Of a stretch of 64,000 nt of DNA, positions 27,466 through 39,802 are shown in pieces. Positions within the stretch are counted from its first letter, which is position 1; the number at the start of each line of letters is the position of its first letter. The notes beneath the pieces are model-generated. The model was given only the letters and a program-made list of their open reading frames with translations. It ran no database searches and was not told where the DNA came from. Source of the DNA: Vulcanimicrobiota bacterium (GTDB lineage Bacteria; Vulcanimicrobiota; Vulcanimicrobiia; Vulcanimicrobiales; Vulcanimicrobiaceae); contig DAHUXH010000020.1 of NCBI GenBank assembly GCA_027307235.1, positions 124,001-188,000 on the forward strand, in the 5' to 3' direction. The translations under genes and the position numbers were made by a program.

Positions 27466-28272
27466 GTGTTGACCTATCGCGACGAACGCCGTCTCATCGC
27501 GTTGCTTGCGATTATCATTCTGTCCGCGGCCGTCGCGTTGATGCAGATCACCGCCGCGCGCAACGGCACGACCAGCCCGATCGCCGTCGCCGGCTCAACC
27601 ATCTTCGCCGGAATCGAAAACGTCATCGGGATCACGACGTCGTGGGTTCGCACGACGACCGGCACCGTGCTCGATCTGCCCAATCTCGCACGCGACAACG
27701 CGACGTTGCGCGCGCGCAACGGCGCGCTTGCTCAAGAGAATGCGCGCTTGAATGAAGTCGTTCACGCCTATCGTGCCGATGCGGCGCTGCAACCGTTGAT
27801 CGAACGCTATCCGCGCGCGATCGAAGCACGCGCCATCGGTTTTCCGCCGGAGAACGAATCGCGCACGATCACGATCGATCGAGGCGCCAACGCCGGCATT
27901 CACAAGGACGATGGCGTGATATCGAACGGCGGCGTCGTGGGGCGCGTCGCCCAGGTCGGTCCGTTCACGAGCACGGTCGTCCTCATCACCGATTACACCA
28001 GCCGCATTCCCGCGGTGGTGCGTCGCGGACGCTGGTGGGGCATCGCCCGCGGCAACCTCGGCAGTGTGCGCATGGAATATATTTCACAAGATGCGCCGGT
28101 GCGTGCCGGCGACATGGTGGTCACCGGTGAAGGACGGTCGTTTCATGCCGGCGAGTTAATCGGTACCATCGTGTCGACCGAGCGCAGCGCCGCCAGTCTC
28201 TTCCAAACGGCCGTGGTGAAGACCGCGGTTGAACTCGGTGCCGTCGACCGCGTCCTCGTCGTCCCGAAGTAA
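27466..28272 (+). CDS. mreC: Rod shape-determining protein MreC
   Basis: 268 residues. One N-terminal membrane helix (about 10-28), a coiled coil (about 68-100, ARDNATLRARNGALAQENARLNEV read in two halves) and a periplasmic beta domain with DRGANAGIHKDDGVIS and GVVGRVAQVGPFTSTVVLI, the diagnostic MreC stretches. It links MreB filaments with peptidoglycan synthases in the elongation machinery. GTG at 27466 gives the normal N-terminus; the long frame upstream is a shadow of maf. mreB, usually upstream, is not in the window. Confidence 0.93.
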   Translation: MLTYRDERRLIALLAIIILSAAVALMQITAARNGTTSPIAVAGSTIFAGIENVIGITTSWVRTTTGTVLDLPNLARDNATLRARNGALAQENARLNEVVHAYRADAALQPLIERYPRAIEARAIGFPPENESRTITIDRGANAGIHKDDGVISNGGVVGRVAQVGPFTSTVVLITDYTSRIPAVVRRGRWWGIARGNLGSVRMEYISQDAPVRAGDMVVTGEGRSFHAGELIGTIVSTERSAASLFQTAVVKTAVELGAVDRVLVVPK

Positions 28273-28780
28273 GCCGCACGAAGCGCCGTACGTCGGCCCA
28301 CGCTGGTGGGTCGCGGCGCTGTGGCTCTTCGGTGCGATCATCGTGCAGCTCTCGCTCGCGCGCATGATCAACGTGCGCGGGACGATCCCGAGCACGATCG
28401 CGGTCGTCGTCGCGTGGTACGCGCTGCGCGCCGACGCGCGGCGTTCCGCATCGTTCGGACTGATCGCCGGACTCTGCGAAGATGTCATTGCGGGAACGAC
28501 CGGCGGGGCGTGGACGGTGTCGACGACACTCGCCGCGCTGTTCGCCAACCGCATCTCGAGCGGTTTCTTCGCCGACTCGATTCCGCTTGCGGCATTCGTC
28601 GCGTTCGCCACCACCATCGCGCGCAACACGATGTTTTGGGTAATGATGCGGTTTGAAGGCTATCCGCCGGGACTCGGCCGCATGCACCTGCGCGAGGCGA
28701 TCGTGCAAGCGATTCTCAACGCCGCCGTGATGATCGCACTCGTCGCGTTCACACGACGCGATCGGGCGCATCTGGCTTGA
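28229..28780 (+). CDS. mreD: Rod shape-determining protein MreD
   Basis: About 183 residues from TTG 28229, or 180 from GTG 28238; starts are ambiguous because both lie inside mreC. Five to six hydrophobic helices begin at WWVAALWLFGAIIVQLSLARM. LIAGLCEDVIAGTTGGAWTVSTTLAAL carries the conserved Gly/Asp-containing turn of MreD. It is a polytopic inner-membrane subunit of the elongation complex. It overlaps mreC by 44 bases and mrdA by three. Confidence 0.85.
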   Translation: MNSVPSTASSSSRSKPHEAPYVGPRWWVAALWLFGAIIVQLSLARMINVRGTIPSTIAVVVAWYALRADARRSASFGLIAGLCEDVIAGTTGGAWTVSTTLAALFANRISSGFFADSIPLAAFVAFATTIARNTMFWVMMRFEGYPPGLGRMHLREAIVQAILNAAVMIALVAFTRRDRAHLA

Positions 28781-30645
28781 GCACGTTCGCGGGACGCCCG
28801 TCACGGCGCAGCGACTGGCAGCGCTCGCCTTGGCGCATCGCCGGCTTCATCGCGGCTCTGGCGGCATTACTATTGGCACTGCTCGTGCGCTTGATCGACG
28901 TGCAACTCGTCCACGGCGAGCGCTATCGCAGCCAAGCGCAAGCCAATCAAATTCGCTTGATCCCGGTGGCGGCGCCGCGCGGCATCATCACCGATCGCAA
29001 CGGCGTGGTGCTGGTGCGCAGCCGGCCGTCGTTCGTCGTCGCGCTGATTCCCTCTGAAGTTCGCGACATCGACCGCGAACTCGATTCGCTCGCGAATGCC
29101 ATCGCGGTGCCGCGTGCAACGTTGATGCAGCGGCTGTTGCATCACCGCGGCATCAACTACAAGAATTTCGACGAGGTCGTCACGTACGAACCGTACGGTC
29201 CGGTGATTCTCGCGAGCGACCTGAAGGGTCCGTTGGTCGCGCGCATCGCCGAGCTGGTCGCCGATCTTCCCGGCGTCGATCTCGAAGTGCAGCCGGTGCG
29301 TGACTATCCGACCGGACCGTACGGCGCGCATCTGTTCGGCTACGTCGGAGCGATTACCGAAGACGAGTATCGCACGCTCAAGAGCAAAGGCTATTCGCCC
29401 AATGACGTTATCGGAAAAGATGGGCTCGAGTACACGTACGACGAGGAGTTGCGCGGTGTCCCAGGCGGCCAGCAAATCGCGGTGGATGCCGCGGGCGCCG
29501 TCGTCGCCGATGCGAAACTGCCGGCTAAAGCCGCGATTCCCGGCGACACGCTGGCGCTCAACGTGGATTGGCGGCTGCAGAGCATCGCCGAGCATGCGCT
29601 CGAAGATAAGCTCGTGGCCTGGGGTCACGCGACCGGACGAAAACTCTCCGGCGCCGTCGTCATCGAGGATCCCTGGACTGGCGCGATACTCGCGCTCGCG
29701 AGTTATCCCAACTTCAATCCGAACGATTTCGCCAACGGCATCGACGCACGCACGTTTTCACGCTACTTGAACGATCCGGCGATGCCGCTCTTCAATCGCG
29801 CTGTCGGTGCGGCGACGCCGACCGGCTCGACGTTCAAGCTTGTCACCGGCACCGCTGCGATCACCGAACATGCGGTAGGCGTCGACGAACCCGTCTACGA
29901 CAGCGGCGCGTGGAACTGCGGCGGCGCGATCTTTCGCGACATCGCGGCGCGCGGTCTGGGAAGAACGACGTTCGTGCCGGCGCTCGCCGCGTCGTCCGAC
30001 GGATACTTCTACCAGTTGTCGTGGCGTCTTGGCAACGAGCGATTGCGCAAATGGGCGCTGCTGTTCGGTCTTGCGAAACGCACCGGTATCGACGTTCCCG
30101 GTGAATACGAAGGCAATTGGCCGACCAACGAATGGATGATGAAGGTCGCGGGCGTTCCGCTCGAACCGAGCGACGTGTGCAGTCTGGGCATCGGGCAAGG
30201 CGCCATGCAAGCGACTCCCGTGCAGATGGCCAACGTCGTGAGCGTCGTCGTCAACGGCGGAACGCTGTACCGCCCGCAGATCGTGCATGCGATCCGCAAT
30301 CCGCACGGGGTCACCATCAAGACCTTCACGCCGCAAGTGATTCGCGACGTGCCGGGTGATCCGCAAGCATTTGCCGCAGTGCGCGACGGCATGGCGCGCG
30401 TCACGTCGCCGGGTGGAACCGCATACGGACTTGCCATCGACGGACTTCCTTTCGGCGGCAAGACGGGAACCGCCGAAACCGAAGGCGGTCGCGGGCCGAA
30501 CACGACCTGGTTCGTCGCTTTCGCTCCGGTCGATCATCCACAACTCGCGATGGCGGTCTTCGTCGAGAAGAGCGGCGGCTACGGCTCGGAAGTCGCCGCT
30601 CCGGTCGCACGCGAAATTCTCGTCAAATACTTCAATAAGAAATAA
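28777..30645 (+). CDS. mrdA: Penicillin-binding protein 2, elongation transpeptidase
   Basis: 622 residues. An N-terminal membrane helix (about 17-38), a pedestal domain (about 55-230, with GIITDRNGVVL) and the transpeptidase. Catalytic motifs: SxxK as TGSTFKLVTG (Ser near 350), SxN region as ASSDGYFYQL (about 408, SSD rather than SxN), and GGKTGTAET (about 560). It cross-links side-wall peptidoglycan with the partner polymerase RodA, which is not here. TTG at 28777 overlaps the mreD stop (TTGA). No plausible terminator follows; the next 199 bases (30646-30844) hold no gene I can support. Confidence 0.96.
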   Translation: MSTFAGRPSRRSDWQRSPWRIAGFIAALAALLLALLVRLIDVQLVHGERYRSQAQANQIRLIPVAAPRGIITDRNGVVLVRSRPSFVVALIPSEVRDIDRELDSLANAIAVPRATLMQRLLHHRGINYKNFDEVVTYEPYGPVILASDLKGPLVARIAELVADLPGVDLEVQPVRDYPTGPYGAHLFGYVGAITEDEYRTLKSKGYSPNDVIGKDGLEYTYDEELRGVPGGQQIAVDAAGAVVADAKLPAKAAIPGDTLALNVDWRLQSIAEHALEDKLVAWGHATGRKLSGAVVIEDPWTGAILALASYPNFNPNDFANGIDARTFSRYLNDPAMPLFNRAVGAATPTGSTFKLVTGTAAITEHAVGVDEPVYDSGAWNCGGAIFRDIAARGLGRTTFVPALAASSDGYFYQLSWRLGNERLRKWALLFGLAKRTGIDVPGEYEGNWPTNEWMMKVAGVPLEPSDVCSLGIGQGAMQATPVQMANVVSVVVNGGTLYRPQIVHAIRNPHGVTIKTFTPQVIRDVPGDPQAFAAVRDGMARVTSPGGTAYGLAIDGLPFGGKTGTAETEGGRGPNTTWFVAFAPVDHPQLAMAVFVEKSGGYGSEVAAPVAREILVKYFNKK

Positions 30646-30844: not shown

Positions 30845-31204
30845 TCACTTATGGCACGGTGCATCCAACAAATGTGGAACAACCATCATTAGACATGCAA
30901 GACCTGAACTGAGAATCGCAGCGGCTGCTAAGGCAATGATCATGCTTGAATGAAAGCTAGAGACTGCTGGAACGGTCTCCTTCGTTACGAACACGACTAT
31001 AGCGCCAATCACCAAACCGATCGCTGCAAACTCAATACTGTAAAGAACAGCCCATATGCGCAACAAGTCGATCTTTATTCCCCATCGCGGCGCGCATCCG
31101 ATTGTCGTCGTGGTCAGCGAATACATCGCTCCGAAACACGCGCCTCCGATGCCCCATGCAGCTAGAACCCCGAGCAACCCAAATAGATTTCTTGGCGCCT
31201 TCAC
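30845..31204 (-). CDS. Small three-helix membrane protein of unknown function
   Basis: 119 residues with three hydrophobic segments, about 5-28 (LFGLLGVLAAWGIGG), 46-74 (IWAVLYSIEFAAIGLVIGAI) and 84-112. I recognise no family. GTG at 31204 follows AAAGGAG at 11 bases, a good ribosome site. The surrounding 30.7-31.25 kb is near 45-50% GC, clearly below the rest of the window, so the gene may be a recent arrival. No adjacent gene on the same strand suggests a partner: the next upstream gene ends 45 bases away at 31249. Confidence 0.6.
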   Translation of the reverse strand: MKAPRNLFGLLGVLAAWGIGGACFGAMYSLTTTTIGCAPRWGIKIDLLRIWAVLYSIEFAAIGLVIGAIVVFVTKETVPAVSSFHSSMIIALAAAAILSSGLACLMMVVPHLLDAPCHK

Positions 31205-31248: not shown

Positions 31249-31578
31249 TTATGCGCTGCGGCGCGCTCCGTTGAGCGCTTCGCGTGTGAGGGCGAGCATC
31301 TCGCCGTGTTCCTCGCCGAGCGCGCGCTCCAAGTAGTCGATGCACCAGGGTTGTGCGATCAGCGCGAGGCGTTCGATGAGGTCGCGCCGCTGCGTTTGGT
31401 CGAGCGGTGTCTCTCCTTCGCTGAAGTCCAGCGCCCACGTGATCGCCGGCGGTTGGACCGGCGTTTCTTCCACGAGCGCGTGCGGTGCCGCGCTGCGAAC
31501 GACGATCGTTCCGGCGATGAAGAGCGCGATGCCGATCAGAAAGACGGCAAAGAACGCAAGCTCGAGATTACTCGGCAA
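31249..31578 (-). CDS. Small single-helix membrane protein, partner of downstream-copy DUF11 protein
   Basis: About 109 residues if it starts at TTG 31578, which overlaps the stop of the large DUF11-repeat gene; a longer frame to 31662 adds arginine-rich residues that shadow that gene. A single N-terminal helix (ELAFFAVFLIGIALFIAG, about 4-24) is followed by a linker and a helical tail with RLALIAQPWCIDYLERAL and EMLALTREALNG. The tail weakly resembles the HEAT-like tail of the 34884-35285 protein, and both genes sit directly after a large DUF11 gene. I infer they are paralogous partners. Function unknown. Confidence 0.6.
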   Translation of the reverse strand: MPSNLELAFFAVFLIGIALFIAGTIVVRSAAPHALVEETPVQPPAITWALDFSEGETPLDQTQRRDLIERLALIAQPWCIDYLERALGEEHGEMLALTREALNGARRSA

Positions 31579-34500
31579 CGACCTGTGCCGCCGCGCGCAA
31601 TTCCTCGAAGACGGCGGCGAGGGCTTCGTCGAGCGAACGATTTCCGCTCGTCGAGAGAACACGGTGAAATTCGTCGATCGGCAGATCCGCTAGCACACCG
31701 AACACCTCGAGCGCGGTGCGACGATAGGTGTCGAGTGCGTCGCTGCCGACGCCGTCACGCACCACGCGTGTGCCGAGCAGGTGCGCGTTGAGCAACCATG
31801 GCGTCACCGAACCGAGCGGCGCCGCCGCATCCATCTGCGCGATCAAGGCACGCAGCTCACCGGATGCGACCGGGCCGATCAAACGCACGGTGCCGGACGC
31901 AGGTGGTGCCAGCATCCCCGGCACGGCGTCGACGGCCAGTTGCGCCAGGTCGAGCATCGCGACGCGCGCGTCACGATCTTCCAAGTCCTTCGCCGTCACA
32001 GCCAAACGCGGCAGGCGCAACCGAACGAAAAACCGCTCGATCGGAGCGCGAGCGGCGCGCACGCTCTCGGAAAAGCGCGCTGCCTGATCGGGCGACGCAC
32101 CGGCGAGCGCGGTCGGCATCAAGAAGCGTAACGCGAAGAGGTGCTGCACGACGCCGCCCGCATCGGTACGTTCGAGCGTGCGCAACGTCTTGGTCAGCGC
32201 GTCGGCCGAAAAATCGGCGTACAGCGTCGGCTCGACGACGACAGGCGGCGCGGCCGGTTCCGGCTCGACCACGGTCACGATCTGCGCAACCGGCGCGACG
32301 GCGGGCGGCGGCACCGATACTTCAGGTGCCGGCAGCGCTGCCGGCGTGGGCGCTTCGAGCGGCGGCGCGGCGTGAGCTTCAGGCTCCTGCGTCAGCGCAG
32401 CCGCTGCTGGCGGCGGTGCGAACAGCGTCGCCACAGAGAGCGGCATGCCCGCGCTCGTCTCCGAGAGCGACGGATGCGCCAGCACGCGCAGCGCCGGCGC
32501 CGCGAGCGCCAGCGTTTCGCCGCCGTCCCATTCGAGCACGGCACGCGTCTCCAGCAAGGCGGTCGCCGGCAGCGGCGACATCGCCATCATCTCCCACGTC
32601 ATGCGCAGCGCAATCCCCGGAAGCACGTCGGCGAGCATCAAGCCGCGTTGCGACCACAACTGCGACATGCCCGCGTCATCAGGCACGCTGACGCCGTTGA
32701 TCGTCGTGGTTCCCGGAACATACACGGCAAGGTTCGTCGGCACGACACGCGCGAGCAGCCGTTCCGCGGGCCCGTCGCCGTCATTCCGCACCAAGAGTTC
32801 GTAACTCACGCGCTCGTTGGGTTCGATCGTTTCGCCGGGCGTCGAGCGCAGCGTCGCGCTTGCGGAGAACAGCGGTTTGGCGAAGGTCGGAATCGCGAGC
32901 GGCGGAAGCTGCAGCGCGCCGATACCGCGACCGTGCAGCCATCCTTCGATTTCCAGCGGCGCGTTGTGCGGAACCGCACGCAACAAACGGACGATGATGC
33001 GCGCTTCGCGCGAGGTCTCGGCCGGCACGTCGCCGAGCATCAAGCCGTCACGTTCACGGCGCGCGTCGATGGCGCGATCGATGGCAAGTTCGCTTGGAAG
33101 CGCGAGCGTCAGTTTGGCGTCGCGCAACACGTCGGAACCCGAGTTGGTGAAGCGCACCACTACTTCGGCGGTGCGATTGGGACGCATCGGCTCGCCGCCG
33201 ACGAACTCCCACGCCAGCCGCGTCGCATCGACGTGCGAACGCGAGCGTGCGATCACGGTGGCCGATCCGAGATCGACCTTGCCGGTGCCGTGTTCGAGCA
33301 TCGCGCCGAGCGTCACCGCCGTGCGATCGGGAACCGGCGACGCGATTCGCGCCGTGACGACGAACGTGCGCGCGACGTGCGGCAGCACGACGCCCAAATC
33401 AACGGTGAGGTCGTGCAGGGCCATCTCGCCGTCGCCTTCGGCGATGCGCACGTGTTCGAGATACGGACCGGGCAATAAGCGCAAGCGAATCGGGCGCTCG
33501 GGCGCCGTGCCGTCGTTGTAGACGTGAACGAGGAAACGCACGTCCTCGCGCGATTGTGCGACTCCCGACTCTGCTTCGACGAAGTTGCGCGCACGCACGA
33601 AGCGCGACATCGTGCGCACCGAGAGGCGGCGTCCGAACCGCCGTTCGCCGCCGCGCCAGCGCAAGAGCGCATCGACCGCGAGCGCGGGATCGCCGCCGGT
33701 GGGCACCGCGACGGTCGCATCGCATCCGACTTCAACAATGCGTCCCGCGCCGAGGTTTCCGATCGCGAAGATGCCCGCACCGACCACGTCGTCGGCGACC
33801 GGTTGTCCGTCGACGTGCGCGGAACCGTTGGTGAACGCCAAGCCCGGCGGGAGTGTGAACGCCACCGTCACGTTCTGCGCGATGCCGGTTCCGGTGTTGG
33901 CCGCGCGCACCACGATCGGAACGCGCTGCCCCGGAATCACGACGTCGTCGGTGAGAATCACGAGCGCCGTCTCGCCGTTGTCGAAATCGACCGGCGATGC
34001 GACGACGATCTCCGCGGAAGACACCGCGAACTCGCCGCACTCGCGCGCGGCGATCACGCCGGTGGCGTTGATGCGCGTGCCGTCGGGCAACGGTGAATCG
34101 ATCGCGGCTTGATATTCGACAATGACGCTCTGCCCGGGAGCGACGCGCTCGGCAACCACCTGCGCGCGATCGTAGTCGAACGGTTCGCCGTCCCCTTCAG
34201 GCAACGCGCGCCCGCCGACACGCGCGCTGCGCGCGACGTACGCGGTATGCTGCGGCACCGGAAGCATCGCGACCACGTCGTGCGCGCTCGACTGCCCGCT
34301 GTTGGCGATGGTCGCGCGCACCGAGATCACATCCCCGGGTTTGGGTTGCACCGGCGAGATGATGGTCAGCACCGTGTCGCTGCCGCGCAGATCGGGTTTA
34401 CTGCGCACGACGATGCGTTCGACATTGGACCCGATCGGTTGCGTTTGATCGGTCGCGAGCGCCGCCTGAACAAATAACTCGGTTCCGTCTTCGATCGTGT

Positions 34501-34834
34501 CTCCGATGCGGAACGTACTGACCACGCGGTGCTGCGACCCCGGCTCGAGGTCACCGACCGCCGCTCCGTTCAGATCAACGAACGTTTCATCGATCCCGAG
34601 CGGCCGATCGTCAATCGCATCGCTCTCGGCGACGTGCGACGCGCCCGGCGGCAGGGAGAAGCGCACGCGCGCGCCGGTCGCGGCGGCTCCGCCCAGGTTG
34701 GAAAAGGTGAACTCCGCGCGAATCGTCTCGCCCGGCGCGACGAAGCGCGACGGAACGAGCACGAGCGTGCGAAGACGCTCGGGGAGTGCGGGTGCGCCCG
34801 CTGCAAAAACTCCGGTCAGTGAACCTGCGGCCAC
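31568..34834 (-). CDS. Large DUF11/CARDB-like repeat protein, copy B
   Basis: 1088 residues. From about 20 to 790 there are six beta-sandwich repeats of about 120 residues, each built on a pattern like PGETIRAEFTFSNLGGAAATG, then VRFSLPPG and a DxxPGS-type strand; this is the DUF11/CARDB conserved-repeat style. A Pro/Ala-rich linker (about 800-880) leads to a conserved helical domain (about 890-1088) that includes VQHLFALRFLMP, RFFVRLRLPRLAV and VTPWLLNAHLLG. There is no signal peptide or membrane helix, although such repeats are normally on secreted proteins. GTG 34834 follows AAAGGAAG. It is a clear paralog of the protein at 35285-38533, with matching order throughout. Function unknown; a cytoplasmic scaffold or a protein exported in a non-classical way are both possible. 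Confidence 0.8.
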   Translation of the reverse strand: MAAGSLTGVFAAGAPALPERLRTLVLVPSRFVAPGETIRAEFTFSNLGGAAATGARVRFSLPPGASHVAESDAIDDRPLGIDETFVDLNGAAVGDLEPGSQHRVVSTFRIGDTIEDGTELFVQAALATDQTQPIGSNVERIVVRSKPDLRGSDTVLTIISPVQPKPGDVISVRATIANSGQSSAHDVVAMLPVPQHTAYVARSARVGGRALPEGDGEPFDYDRAQVVAERVAPGQSVIVEYQAAIDSPLPDGTRINATGVIAARECGEFAVSSAEIVVASPVDFDNGETALVILTDDVVIPGQRVPIVVRAANTGTGIAQNVTVAFTLPPGLAFTNGSAHVDGQPVADDVVGAGIFAIGNLGAGRIVEVGCDATVAVPTGGDPALAVDALLRWRGGERRFGRRLSVRTMSRFVRARNFVEAESGVAQSREDVRFLVHVYNDGTAPERPIRLRLLPGPYLEHVRIAEGDGEMALHDLTVDLGVVLPHVARTFVVTARIASPVPDRTAVTLGAMLEHGTGKVDLGSATVIARSRSHVDATRLAWEFVGGEPMRPNRTAEVVVRFTNSGSDVLRDAKLTLALPSELAIDRAIDARRERDGLMLGDVPAETSREARIIVRLLRAVPHNAPLEIEGWLHGRGIGALQLPPLAIPTFAKPLFSASATLRSTPGETIEPNERVSYELLVRNDGDGPAERLLARVVPTNLAVYVPGTTTINGVSVPDDAGMSQLWSQRGLMLADVLPGIALRMTWEMMAMSPLPATALLETRAVLEWDGGETLALAAPALRVLAHPSLSETSAGMPLSVATLFAPPPAAAALTQEPEAHAAPPLEAPTPAALPAPEVSVPPPAVAPVAQIVTVVEPEPAAPPVVVEPTLYADFSADALTKTLRTLERTDAGGVVQHLFALRFLMPTALAGASPDQAARFSESVRAARAPIERFFVRLRLPRLAVTAKDLEDRDARVAMLDLAQLAVDAVPGMLAPPASGTVRLIGPVASGELRALIAQMDAAAPLGSVTPWLLNAHLLGTRVVRDGVGSDALDTYRRTALEVFGVLADLPIDEFHRVLSTSGNRSLDEALAAVFEELRAAAQVVAE

Positions 34835-34883
34835 CTTGCTTCCTTTCCGTCTTGCCCCGGTGACGCCCTAGCGACTGCGGCGC

Positions 34884-35285
34884 TTACTCGAGAAATGCGA
34901 GCGTTTCCACCAGGCGCCGAGCACGCTCGCTCGGCTCGCGCTGCGCGTACTGCGCGACCAGGTCGCCCCGGCCCCGCGTCGCGAGCGCATGCGCCGCCGC
35001 CAGCGCCACCGCTTCGGCCGGATCGTCCAGCGCGAACTCGAGCAGCCGCCGCGAACGCTCGTCGTCGATGGAGGCCGCCGCGAAGATCATCTCGCAGCGA
35101 GCCGCCTCGTTCAGCCGCTCGAACTCCTCGACCACCTCCGACGGCCACGCCTCGTCGCGTGCCAGTTCTTCGACGAGCGTCGGCTCACGGTGCGCCGGTT
35201 CCCGGCGAGGAGCGAACAACGCGTACGCGCCGATCGCGGCACCCACGATGAAGACCGCGGCGAGGACGATGGTGAGCACGGCCAT
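34884..35285 (-). CDS. Small membrane-anchored HEAT-like protein, partner of copy A
   Basis: 133 residues. An N-terminal helix (about 4-24, LTIVLAAVFIVGAAIGAYAL) without a cleavage site, an acidic linker, then four or five short helices in HEAT/ARM style (RRLLEFALDDPAEAVALAAA, then ALATRGRGDLVAQY). Such repeats bind other proteins. ATG 35285 overlaps the stop of the large DUF11 gene by one base, so the two are translationally coupled. The tail shares a faint pattern with the other small protein at 31249-31578. It likely anchors or docks its large partner at the membrane; this is inference. Confidence 0.65.
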   Translation of the reverse strand: MAVLTIVLAAVFIVGAAIGAYALFAPRREPAHREPTLVEELARDEAWPSEVVEEFERLNEAARCEMIFAAASIDDERSRRLLEFALDDPAEAVALAAAHALATRGRGDLVAQYAQREPSERARRLVETLAFLE

Positions 35286-38200
35286 CAGATGTGCGCCGCC
35301 GCAAGCGATGCACGCACGATGTCGAGCGACGCGTCGAGGACCGGATACTCACGGCGCACGAGCACGTCGAGAAACTCCGGGCTTTCAGCTTGGGTGAGCT
35401 CTTCGAGCACGGTGATCAGCGCGGTGCGATAGTGAGCGAGCTGCTCGGACCCGTTCGGGATGACGCACGCGATCGCAAGCCACGGCACGGCGGTTGCGAG
35501 CGGCGCTTCATGAACGCGATCGATGAGCGCGACCAGGCGGTCGAGATCGACGTCTCCGCGCAGCACGACCGCCGCCGTCGGCGGATCGCCCGGAACGCCG
35601 CGCGCCACCGCCGTCTCCGCGATGAAACGTTCGAGCGTCGCGCGCGACGCGCTCGTTTCTATATCCCGCGGCACCGGAATGTACGTCGGCAGGCGCAGCT
35701 TGATGAACAGGCGGTCAAGCGTTTCGCGCAAGGTCTCGCGCTGCCCGCCAATTGAACTGAGGTGCGCGCTGCCGATCGTGTCGGGGAAGAGCGCGCGCAT
35801 CGCAAAGAGATGCGTCGAAAATCCCGGAAAGCGGGACTCTTCGAGAAAGCGCAACATGCGGCGCGCACGGTCGCTTTCAAATGCGACCACCACGCCGGGG
35901 CCGCCGGACGTCACGCCGTTGTGCGACTCGCCGTTGGTCGCGCGCCCGCCTTCGAGCGAGAGGTAGCGCGGGGCGTTCGGCATCGCGACCGCCGCGTCGA
36001 CGTAGCCCGCGTCTACCGGCGTGGCCGGGGGCAATTCGACGAAACGCTCCTCGGTGAGCGCACGCGTGCCGCCCAGCGACGGCCCGACCATTCCGTCCAA
36101 CCCGAACGGCAACCCGGGAATCATGTTGGCAAACGCCGGCGTTGCGCGCACGCGCAATTCTCCGGCGATCAGTTCGTCGGTGCGCTCGCCGTCGTAGCGG
36201 ATTGTTGCAACGCGCTCGATCGCGTCGCCGGCGGCCAAGCCGTTGTGCACGACGTCGCGCCACCGGATCGTCGCTTCGATGCCGGGATCGACGTCGTTGA
36301 GCACGACGCCGCGCTCGCTCGAAATCGGCGAGACCGCCCCGACGTCGCGAACCGGAACGCCGTTGACCGTCGTGCTGTTGGGAACGTAGATCAGCGCATC
36401 GCTCGGCGCAACCGAGATGTGCACTCGCCGTGAGGGGCCGTCGCCGCCGTTGCGAACGTGCAGGACGAACTCGACGGTGTCGCCGACGTCGACCACGTCG
36501 GCCGGCTCGCTGCGGAACGTGCCGACTGAGAAGTCAGGCTCCGCGGTCGTTTCGATCGTGAGCCGCTCGAGCGGCACGGGGAGCATCGCGTCCGACGTCA
36601 GCACGGCGTCGATGGTGACGGGGTAGTCCTTGGCCAGACTGCGCAGCAAGCGTAGTCCCAAACGCGCCTCGAGCACCGCCCCCGGCGCGACGTCACCGAA
36701 GAGCAGCGACGACTTCTCGCGCGCCGCTCCGTCAACGGTTTCCAATCGCGCCTCGGGAGAGACGTAAACACGCACGCGCACGTTGTGCGCGACGTCGGTG
36801 CCGCGATTGGTCAAACGAACGATCGCGTCGGCGATTTGATTGGGGCGCAAAACCGCGTCGCTCGCAAGTTCAAGATGCGAACCCTCGAGCGTGAACGACG
36901 GATGCGAGTCGACCTGCCATCGGAGTTCGCCAAGCGGTGTTTCACCGAGTTCGTGCGTGTGCAGGCTCGCACCGATGCGCACTTCACTACGATCCGCATA
37001 CGGCGTCCGCAGGCGGGCGCGCAGCGTAATACGGCGCTGGGTATACGGCTCGATCGCGCCGAGTTCCACCGCGTCGCCGTCGATCGGCAGACGTGCGTTC
37101 TTCTCCACCACCCGAACGTCATCGAATCCGGCATCGACGCGCAATCGCAGCGTGCAATCGGTAGCCGGCGCGCTGCCGTCGTTGGCGAGCACGATCGCGA
37201 CCTCGACTTCTTCGCTCGGATGCACGATGGTGCCCGAGACGTTTTCGAGCGCGTTCTTGCGCGCCGGAAGATATGGCTCGGAGCGCACGGCGACGGCACG
37301 CTCGAAGGTCCGCTCGACCTCGCGCGCCTCGCTGCCATGCTGCCATGCAAGGCGCAAGCCGACGTCGAGCTGCGTGCCGTTGGGCATCGGCGAGATGACG
37401 CAGGCCTCGGCGCGCAGTTCCACGCCGGCGCGCGCGTCGATCCGCCCCAGATCGAAGACCGGCGCGTCCTTCTTGCGGTCGCGCACCGGACGTCCGTCCA
37501 CGCGCGCCGATCCGCGGGCGAGCACCAAGCCCTCGGGCAACGTCAGGATCGCGCTCACGCCATCGGCCGCGCAGGTGCCGGCGTTGTGCGCGTTCAGCAT
37601 CAGCGTCACGCGATCGCCGGGCTGCACGTCGAACGCGGGCTCAAGGGTGAACGACGTGAGTTCGCTCGAAAAGTCCGGCGCCGATCGCACCGAAAACGCC
37701 GCCGGTTCGAGATCGAACGCCGGCGTTTCCTGGGAAGCGACGTGCGCGGTCGCGACAATGCGCGTTCCGTCGGCCAGCGGATCGTCGATGCGCACGCGGT
37801 AGATCAGCGTTGCCGTCGCCGATGCGGGCAGATTCGCGATGACGACCGGCGCATGGACGCGGTCGAAACTCGCGCCCAAGTCGCGCTCGATCTCGCGGCC
37901 GTTGACGCGCGCCGAATTGGGCACGTAGCTCGTGAACTCCGGGATCGGTGCGACAACGACGACGTCGTGCGCGCTCGACTCTCCGGCGTTGTGCACGCGC
38001 ACGATCACTTGCGCTTCGCTGCCCGGCGCCGGATCGCGGCGCGGCTCGATCGCCACCGCCGTGATGGCATTGCCGAGCTGCGGCTTGCTGCGAGCGACCA
38101 AACGGACGACGTTGGTGCCGACCGGTGACAATTCAAAGGAAGCAACCGCTGCCTGAAGCTCGATGGTCGAGCCGTTCTCGATCGCACCCGCAACGCTGTA

Positions 38201-38533
38201 GGCGATCTCCAGCCGCCGCTCCTCACCGGGCTCGACATCCCCGATCTGCGCGCCGGAACGCGCGAGCAGCGGCGAGTTGCCCAAGTCGTCGTCCAGACAC
38301 TCGCCGTCGAGCAGGCCCGTCCCGACGAGATAGACTAGGCCGTCGGGGAGATTGAAGCGCACGCGCACGCCGGTTGCGGTGGCACCGCCTTGATTACGAA
38401 ACGTGAACATTGCCCGGACCGTGATCCCAGGTTCGAGTTCGCGGTCGGGCGAAACGACGAGCGTTCGGAGGCCTTCCGGAAGCGTCGGTGCTCCCGGCGC
38501 AAAAACTTCGGTGAGCGTGCGCATGGGCGACAC
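35285..38533 (-). CDS. Large DUF11/CARDB-like repeat protein, copy A
   Basis: 1082 residues from GTG 38533, or 1079 from ATG 38524. It has the same plan as copy B: N-terminal LTEVFAPGAPTLPEGLRTLV (copy B: LTGVFAAGAPALPERLRTLV), six DUF11-like sandwiches at about 25-140, 150-270, 280-400, 410-530, 540-660 and 680-800, a linker, and a helical domain (about 890-1082) with STHLFAMRALFPD, LFIKLRLPTYIPV and TAVPWLAIACVI. Repeat 2 has PEFTSYVPNSARVNG, and repeat 6 has LIYVPNSTTVNGVPV, both also in copy B. No signal peptide. First gene of a four-gene minus-strand set (big A, small A, big B, small B), facing a divergent aminotransferase across about 75 bases. Function unknown. Confidence 0.8.
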   Translation of the reverse strand: MSPMRTLTEVFAPGAPTLPEGLRTLVVSPDRELEPGITVRAMFTFRNQGGATATGVRVRFNLPDGLVYLVGTGLLDGECLDDDLGNSPLLARSGAQIGDVEPGEERRLEIAYSVAGAIENGSTIELQAAVASFELSPVGTNVVRLVARSKPQLGNAITAVAIEPRRDPAPGSEAQVIVRVHNAGESSAHDVVVVAPIPEFTSYVPNSARVNGREIERDLGASFDRVHAPVVIANLPASATATLIYRVRIDDPLADGTRIVATAHVASQETPAFDLEPAAFSVRSAPDFSSELTSFTLEPAFDVQPGDRVTLMLNAHNAGTCAADGVSAILTLPEGLVLARGSARVDGRPVRDRKKDAPVFDLGRIDARAGVELRAEACVISPMPNGTQLDVGLRLAWQHGSEAREVERTFERAVAVRSEPYLPARKNALENVSGTIVHPSEEVEVAIVLANDGSAPATDCTLRLRVDAGFDDVRVVEKNARLPIDGDAVELGAIEPYTQRRITLRARLRTPYADRSEVRIGASLHTHELGETPLGELRWQVDSHPSFTLEGSHLELASDAVLRPNQIADAIVRLTNRGTDVAHNVRVRVYVSPEARLETVDGAAREKSSLLFGDVAPGAVLEARLGLRLLRSLAKDYPVTIDAVLTSDAMLPVPLERLTIETTAEPDFSVGTFRSEPADVVDVGDTVEFVLHVRNGGDGPSRRVHISVAPSDALIYVPNSTTVNGVPVRDVGAVSPISSERGVVLNDVDPGIEATIRWRDVVHNGLAAGDAIERVATIRYDGERTDELIAGELRVRATPAFANMIPGLPFGLDGMVGPSLGGTRALTEERFVELPPATPVDAGYVDAAVAMPNAPRYLSLEGGRATNGESHNGVTSGGPGVVVAFESDRARRMLRFLEESRFPGFSTHLFAMRALFPDTIGSAHLSSIGGQRETLRETLDRLFIKLRLPTYIPVPRDIETSASRATLERFIAETAVARGVPGDPPTAAVVLRGDVDLDRLVALIDRVHEAPLATAVPWLAIACVIPNGSEQLAHYRTALITVLEELTQAESPEFLDVLVRREYPVLDASLDIVRASLAAAHI

Positions 38534-38608
38534 CGATTCGCCGCCGGAAATCGGCCCCCTTGACTAAGGTCGTATTAACAAACTCGTTTGAAAGGGATGC
38601 TCGTCACG

Positions 38609-39802
38609 ATGCTTGCTGCCACCGACGATCGGATCGCCGCCGCCGTTTCACGCTTGGGAAGCGAGAACGCCTTTGAGGTACTGGCGCGCGCACGCGTGCT
38701 CGAAGCCGCGGGAAAGCGCGTCGTGCACATGGAGATCGGTGAACCGGATTTCGACACACCCGGCCATATCAAGGAAGCGGGCATTGCCGCGATGCACGCC
38801 AACTTCACGCACTACTCGCCCTCGGCCGGCATCCCCGAGCTGCGCGCGACGATCGCCGAGTATGCCAGCGCTTTCCGCAAGCTCGACAAACCGTACACGC
38901 TGGACAACGTCACCGTCTCCCCGGGCGCCAAACCCATCATCTGGAACATCCTCTCGGCGATTCTCAATCCGGGTGACGACTTCGTGTACTTCGATCCGGC
39001 GTATCCGGCGTATGCATCAGCGGCGAGCTACCTGCAAGCGAAGGTCACCGCGATTCCGCTGCGCGAGTCGCACAACTGGCGCATGGATCTCGACGAACTC
39101 GATCGCGCGGTGACGCCGCGGACCAAGGCGATCGTGATCAACTCGCCGCACAATCCGACCGGCGGCGTGCTCACGCCCGGCGATCTGGAACGCATCGCCG
39201 AGATCGCGCAGCGCAACGACGCCTTGGTCATCGCCGACGAGATCTACAGCCGCAACTTCTACCTCGACTCGCCCTTCGTTTCGATCGCCTCGCTTCCGGG
39301 GATGCGCGAGCGCACGATCATCGTCGACGGTTTTTCAAAGGCCTATGCGATGACCGGCTGGCGCCTCGGTTACGCGATCATGCCCGAAGAGCTGCAAAAA
39401 GTCGTGACGCTCTTCAACAACAACACGTTCAGCTGCGTGACGACGTTCGTGCAGAAGGCCGGCATCGCCGCGCTGACCGGCCCCGATGCGCCGGTGCAGA
39501 AGATGAACGCCATCTTCCGCGAGCGGCGCGATGCGCTGGTCAGCGGATTGAACGCGCTGCCGGGGATGACATGCACGCTGCCGGAAGGCGCGTTCTACGC
39601 GTTTCCAAACGTGTCGAAGATCACCAGTGACGACCGCGCGTTGGCGCGCTTCCTCCTCGAAGAAGCCGGTGTCGCCTGCACCGGCGGATCGTCGTTCGGC
39701 GCCGCGGGCAAAGGGTATCTGCGCTTCTCCTACGCCGCCTCGATCGAAGACATCCAGTTCGCGCTTGCGCAAATTGCCAAGCACCTCCCCGACTTCAAGT
39801 AG
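38609..39802 (+). CDS. Class I/II PLP-dependent aminotransferase
   Basis: 397 residues from ATG 38609, which follows GAAAGGGA by 11 bases; TTG 38588 and ATG 38597 are earlier options. Fold type I motifs: MEIGEPDFDTPGHI (about 40-53), YSPSAGIPELR (about 70-80), NSPHNPTGGV (about 170), ADEIYS (about 205, Asp and Tyr near PLP) and the PLP lysine in DGFSKAYAMTGWRLGY (about 238). These fit the aspartate/aromatic aminotransferase subgroup I-gamma; substrate cannot be fixed by eye. The gene stands alone. Its stop is the first base of the 102-bp hairpin repeat, which may act as its transcription end. Confidence 0.93.
   Translation: MLAATDDRIAAAVSRLGSENAFEVLARARVLEAAGKRVVHMEIGEPDFDTPGHIKEAGIAAMHANFTHYSPSAGIPELRATIAEYASAFRKLDKPYTLDNVTVSPGAKPIIWNILSAILNPGDDFVYFDPAYPAYASAASYLQAKVTAIPLRESHNWRMDLDELDRAVTPRTKAIVINSPHNPTGGVLTPGDLERIAEIAQRNDALVIADEIYSRNFYLDSPFVSIASLPGMRERTIIVDGFSKAYAMTGWRLGYAIMPEELQKVVTLFNNNTFSCVTTFVQKAGIAALTGPDAPVQKMNAIFRERRDALVSGLNALPGMTCTLPEGAFYAFPNVSKITSDDRALARFLLEEAGVACTGGSSFGAAGKGYLRFSYAASIEDIQFALAQIAKHLPDFK

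Follow-up and report, generated by a model that had tools for sequence, protein, structure and literature searches.

The A-a-B-b locus and its proteins

A row of four genes, designated A, a, B, and b, occupies the minus strand of the window, the whole 64,000-nucleotide stretch of DNA that was analyzed, which belongs to a 2.41 Mb genome of 20 contigs from a little-studied soil phylum with very few cultured members. The row is sited between an aspC-like gene and mreC-mreD-mrdA. Each of the two large genes, A and B, is followed by a small gene, a or b, and the features are listed here by window position, with CTD denoting the C-terminal domain of the large proteins.

27466-30645, direction opposite to the cassette: mreC-mreD-mrdA, flanking the row
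31249-31578, minus strand: small partner b, 109 aa, with a transmembrane (TM) helix and a HEAT-like segment; TTG start
31568-34834, minus strand: large protein B, 1088 aa, with the same architecture as A
31571-32227, minus strand: CTD of B, from the alignment of homologs
32510-34783, minus strand: array of DUF11 repeats in B, with approximate limits set by the Pfam match and the alignment to A
34884-35285, minus strand: small partner a, 133 aa, with an N-terminal TM helix, an Arg-rich flank, and a HEAT-like helical domain
35285-38524, minus strand: large protein A, 1079 aa, with six DUF11-like repeats, a linker, and the CTD; its ATG start is conserved in orthologs
35288-35896, minus strand: CTD of A (residues 877-1079), from the alignment of homologs and an AlphaFold2 model
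36155-38461, minus strand: array of DUF11 repeats in A, spanning roughly residues 22-790, with approximate limits set by the N-x-G anchors and repeat-pair alignment
38597-39802: aspC-like gene, the other flank of the row

These coordinates agree overall with those in the preliminary description of the locus, except that the conserved ATG of A (38524) lies three codons inside the GTG (38533) at which the gene had been started. Coupled starts had also been proposed, and both overlaps are present, as the ATG of a overlaps the stop codon of A and the start codon of b overlaps the stop codon of B; the start of b is the TTG at 31578 rather than a codon at 31662. Directly downstream of b, a 119-aa membrane-protein-like ORF (window 30845-31204, minus strand) is absent from the gene caller output.

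The two large proteins had been described as sharing one order of six DUF11-like repeats, a linker, and a helical end, and their end-to-end alignment bears this out (34% identity over 1096 columns, E 1e-150). The repeats match the Pfam DUF11 family with E-values of 1e-28 in A and 4e-17 in B, and the modules of both proteins score far above the curated cut-offs of PF01345/TIGR01451. When profiles of the six repeats were compared, each pair aligned with a probability of 85-99%, and all six repeats carry an N-x-G motif that does not vary among 41 homologs (residues 44, 179, 314, 448, 573, and 692 of A). A variable linker separates the repeat array from the CTD in both A and B. DUF11 repeats are familiar chiefly from surface proteins, which are usually secreted. 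The reported lack of a signal peptide or membrane helix holds across 44 relatives of the large proteins, as judged by hydropathy only: the highest 19-residue hydropathy was 1.31 in the first 60 residues and 1.83 over the whole protein. A sequence search of the PDB with A returned nothing useful.

What had been termed a conserved helical end is a folded domain of 203 aa, for which AlphaFold2 produced a model from A with a pLDDT of 96.8 and a pTM of 0.92. Its predicted secondary structure consists of two successive units of a strand plus helices. Since the sequence signal for an internal duplication is weak (E 0.018 in one comparison), the proposed duplication rests on the order of the secondary structure elements. 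The CTD had no significant match among Pfam and PDB sequences, and a Foldseek comparison of CTD folds with PDB structures and viral models gave best E-values of 0.41 and 0.66 at TM scores of about 0.2, which are meaningless. No CTD was found on plasmids.

The presence of a small protein with one TM helix directly after each large protein was likewise upheld for both a and b. The small proteins are almost uncharged before the N-terminal TM helix and carry approximately three Lys/Arg residues after it, followed by HEAT-like helices; in 38 of the 39 small proteins, Lys/Arg residues are more numerous after the helix than ahead of it. This charge pattern suggests an N-out/C-in anchor that would place the HEAT-like domain in the cytoplasm. 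Protein a matches HEAT_2 (PF13646) with an E-value of 0.001 and 19.8 bits, under the cut-off of 27.7 bits, which the longer partner of a sister family exceeds (33.9 bits), whereas b had no HEAT_2 match. A direct BLAST comparison of a and b detected no similarity, but the two are related at the profile level, where a profile of b (17-sequence set) matched the a protein of the window with an E-value of 6.8e-9.

Longer partners of about 200-220 aa are present in the sister family and in genus g9. A profile of a scored highest against the C-terminal part of these (E 1e-10 for residues 165-217 in a partner of 218, for example), and a profile of b matched the N-terminal part (residues 49-123, E 1e-12), both with a 27-sequence set. 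The simplest reading is that a kept the C-terminal half and b the N-terminal half of a longer, ancestral-type HEAT partner, although this reading is suggestive rather than proven because HEAT repeats resemble one another. Such complementary halves hint that A-a and B-b may work together.

Conservation and age of the cassette

Orthologs of A were identified across the family with 48-66% identity, in many cases with B adjacent, and in much of the family the complete A-a-B-b row occupies a single locus between aspC and mrdA. This side-by-side conservation across many genera argues that the arrangement is not due to chance. In the tree of the large proteins, A and B fall on opposite sides of a split with a support of 97, and genus g9 has both, which suggests a duplication of roughly the same age as the family. 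Placement of the sister family and of some g9 members on the B side depends partly on a weak node (support 12). The tandem duplication in the preliminary description is thus a doubling of a two-gene cassette as proposed, but an old one conserved across many genera and not a recent local event.

Several variants of the locus were observed. In one genome (G006, L040:7889-8529), a toxin-antitoxin-like pair, recognized by eye as a PIN-type toxin and a small antitoxin, is inserted between a and B. Another genome (G005, L135:7366-10411) carries at the same locus a shrunken cassette encoding a 551-aa DUF11-CTD protein and an 85-aa partner, together with an extra 369-aa gene. Genus g9 has an additional, shorter pair of DUF11-CTD and small-protein genes (L134, L140, L143, L145, L148, L149, and L152), which in several genomes lies close to clpX and to priA-like and CRP-like genes.

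Nearly every CTD gene in the two families is followed directly by a small-protein gene, which usually touches or overlaps it. All 10 genomes of genus g24 encode a and the CTD of B as a single, fused polypeptide, and in genus g18, B has lost the DUF11 arm while the CTD and b are kept. From these sequences, the CTD and its HEAT-like partner appear to be the core unit, and the DUF11 arm appears to be optional. In an AlphaFold model of the natural a-CTD fusion, the individual domains are confident and the segment orthologous to a forms a helical bundle. Foldseek returned weak matches to the fusion model, mostly of the HEAT, ARM, and alphaRep types, none of them significant. As the linkers score below 50 and are floppy and the pTM is 0.59, no interface between the HEAT-like domain and the CTD can be read from this model. 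The idea of a dedicated complex is therefore borne out as far as a two-protein unit is concerned, through gene adjacency and the fusion in 10 genomes, while the fused model has no confident interface.

Relation of the cassette to flagella and type IV pili

The occurrence of the cassette was compared with that of flagella in 81 genomes on a GyrB tree, with flagellated genomes called by the presence of a flagellar-type FlhA or a flagellin. One genome called non-flagellated (G008) is probably that of the cultured isolate Vulcanimicrobium alpinus, which is reported to be without flagella and to move by type IV pili (PMC9758169), consistent with the call. Among genomes with a full-length B-side protein, 27 of 28 are flagellated, compared with 14 of 53 genomes without one (Fisher p 4e-10). 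A Pagel-type test on the GyrB tree, in which few branches are strongly supported, indicated correlated evolution of B and flagella (LRT 23.8, p 8.6e-5), the flagellum trait having been chosen after the data were seen; the association was also found within the B clade alone (p 0.0023) and when doubtful calls were set to unknown (p 3e-5). The corresponding tests gave p 0.03 for A and flagella and p 0.28 for B and type IV pili. An independent-pairs test of B and flagella was consistent in direction and not significant, as there are too few supported pairs. Flagella occur without B (G001, G018, G027, and G102), such that B is not essential for them, and in one genome that is 86% complete (G025), B is present and no flagellar genes were found. 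The cassette adjoins a flagellin gene in 4 of 4 sister-family genomes, all of one genus, and is not adjacent to flagellar genes in family f1.

The association of B with flagella could also be a side effect of gene losses shared by streamlined lineages, with the cassette acting inside the cell as a scaffold whose function is general and unrelated to flagella. We regard this as rather unlikely. It would fit the survival of A in lineages without flagella and type IV pili, the patchiness of the losses, and the post hoc choice of the trait, but A and type IV pili, which have disappeared from many of these lineages too, are without an equally strong association, and genus g18 loses the arm of B alone and leaves the remaining cassette in place.

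The CTD also occurs beside other surface machinery. In five genomes (G003, G013, G016, G030, and G103; in a sixth, G130, the region is cut off by the end of a contig), a CTD protein free of DUF11 is encoded directly after the pilQ secretin gene in a pil operon in which secretin, PilM, and T2SSE domains were found. The CTD gene is followed there by a gene for a protein without a TM helix, HEAT-like where tested, and then by a gene for a second PilT-like ATPase. These genomes belong to other genera and, where sampled, group in one GyrB clade, so that this arrangement probably reflects one event. The pilM-N-O-P-Q operon of the window genome itself (L156:6529-10568) contains no CTD gene, and A-bearing genomes without PilM exist; these two observations rule out an obligate link of the cassette to type IV pili. 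Elsewhere, a DUF11-CTD and HEAT-like pair lies in an operon with secretin, GGDEF, and HD-domain genes (G038, L065:8313-15499), and a distant genome of the phylum has a weak relative of the CTD (E 1e-5) beside a DUF11 protein and ExeA-like ATPases. At that distant locus (L063:3954-11728), two genes for ExeA-like AAA ATPases alternate with CTD-like genes and a gene for a DUF11 protein of 1333 aa; of the CTD-like proteins, the second (9752) is a marginal match only. The role of the cassette, previously given as unknown, is thereby narrowed to a B copy that co-evolves with the flagellum and a CTD-HEAT core that elsewhere is part of a type IV pilus operon.

A putative membrane-tethered scaffold and its relation to known systems

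Our preferred reading, which we put forward tentatively at slightly under an even chance, is that the cassette encodes a scaffold that lies in the cytoplasm, is tethered to the inner membrane, and in its B copy serves the flagellum. The small protein would span the membrane a single time, with the N-terminus facing outward and the HEAT-like domain facing the cytoplasm, and the CTD of the large protein would dock on or near that domain to form a physical complex. The absence of export signals and the charge pattern of the partner support an intracellular location of the large proteins, in which case the six immunoglobulin-like DUF11 modules could form a long cytoplasmic arm that binds client proteins. 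Following the ancient duplication, the A and B copies may have specialized while keeping complementary halves of the ancestral HEAT partner: full-length B would have become tied to the flagellum as a membrane organizer or assembly scaffold, and A would have retained a broader role, independent of both flagella and type IV pili.

A scaffold for cell elongation or shape, acting with MreC, MreD, and PBP2, seems improbable. The cassette is convergent with mreC-mreD-mrdA in most f1 genomes that have it, and in some of them mreB is present there as well; however, convergent genes are not co-transcribed, the sister-family cassettes and the second copies in g9 have other neighbors, and gene neighborhood does not explain why B tracks flagella. 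Sec-independent export of the large proteins through a type III export gate, either that of the flagellum or a second, non-flagellar one, to act outside as a filament, cap, or adhesin with the small protein as an export tether or chaperone, would suit the usual extracellular location of DUF11, the absence of Sec signals from flagellar substrates, the tracking of flagella by B, and a second FHIPEP paralogue in nearly all family genomes, but is decidedly improbable given that A, unlike a flagellar export substrate restricted to genomes with FHIPEP, occurs in near-complete genomes in which no FHIPEP gene was found (G004, G024, and G106), that the DUF11-free versions of the module have soluble partners amid cytoplasmic pilus ATPases, and that the charge pattern of the partner puts its domain in the cytoplasm. 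On the FHIPEP criterion, B may still be such a substrate. The second FHIPEP (FlhA-like) gene (G000:C18:45287-47230) scores about 640 bits, compared with about 850 for the flagellar one, and is present in most f1 genomes, non-flagellated ones included, where it may represent a non-flagellar type III export gate.

The tethered scaffold can be extended to a broader proposal, which we consider unlikely yet worth stating: the CTD would be a new fold peculiar to Eremiobacterota and would act with the HEAT protein as a lineage-specific adaptor linking surface machines to an immunoglobulin-like arm inside the cell; the machines would be the flagellum, through B, and, in another clade, type IV pili.

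The repeats of A and B match those of DUF11/B_ant_repeat proteins (PF01345, TIGR01451) above the cut-off, and the two proteins differ from known members in having no export signal, a helical end without known relatives, and a dedicated membrane partner. A large, conserved DUF11 family that apparently stays intracellular would alter the annotation of DUF11 genes, which are now marked as surface proteins. Likeness to HEAT repeat proteins (PF13646) passes the cut-off in the sister-family partner and stays below it in a; compared with these proteins, the small partners are very short, have an N-terminal membrane anchor, and are paired with a CTD protein. With the type IV pilus genes (pilMNOPQ, pilT) the cassette shares an operon context in another clade, where the CTD and its HEAT-like partner are encoded among them, although the CTD matches no pilus protein family. 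Co-evolution with flagella gives this conserved gene unit a concrete, testable role. In manner of working, and in that respect only, a close parallel is offered by the polar landmark proteins HubP/FimV/TspA, which form a cytoplasmic scaffold tethered at the inner membrane and connected with both flagella and type IV pili (PMC12918733). HubP/FimV are single proteins with a periplasmic LysM-like domain, an acidic cytoplasmic region, and a C-terminal TPR/FimV domain; no Pfam or NCBIfam match to a LysM-like or TPR/FimV domain was found in A, a, B, or b. If the adaptor proposal is true, the cassette would constitute a landmark system, or a scaffold for assembly, with no relation to HubP/FimV.
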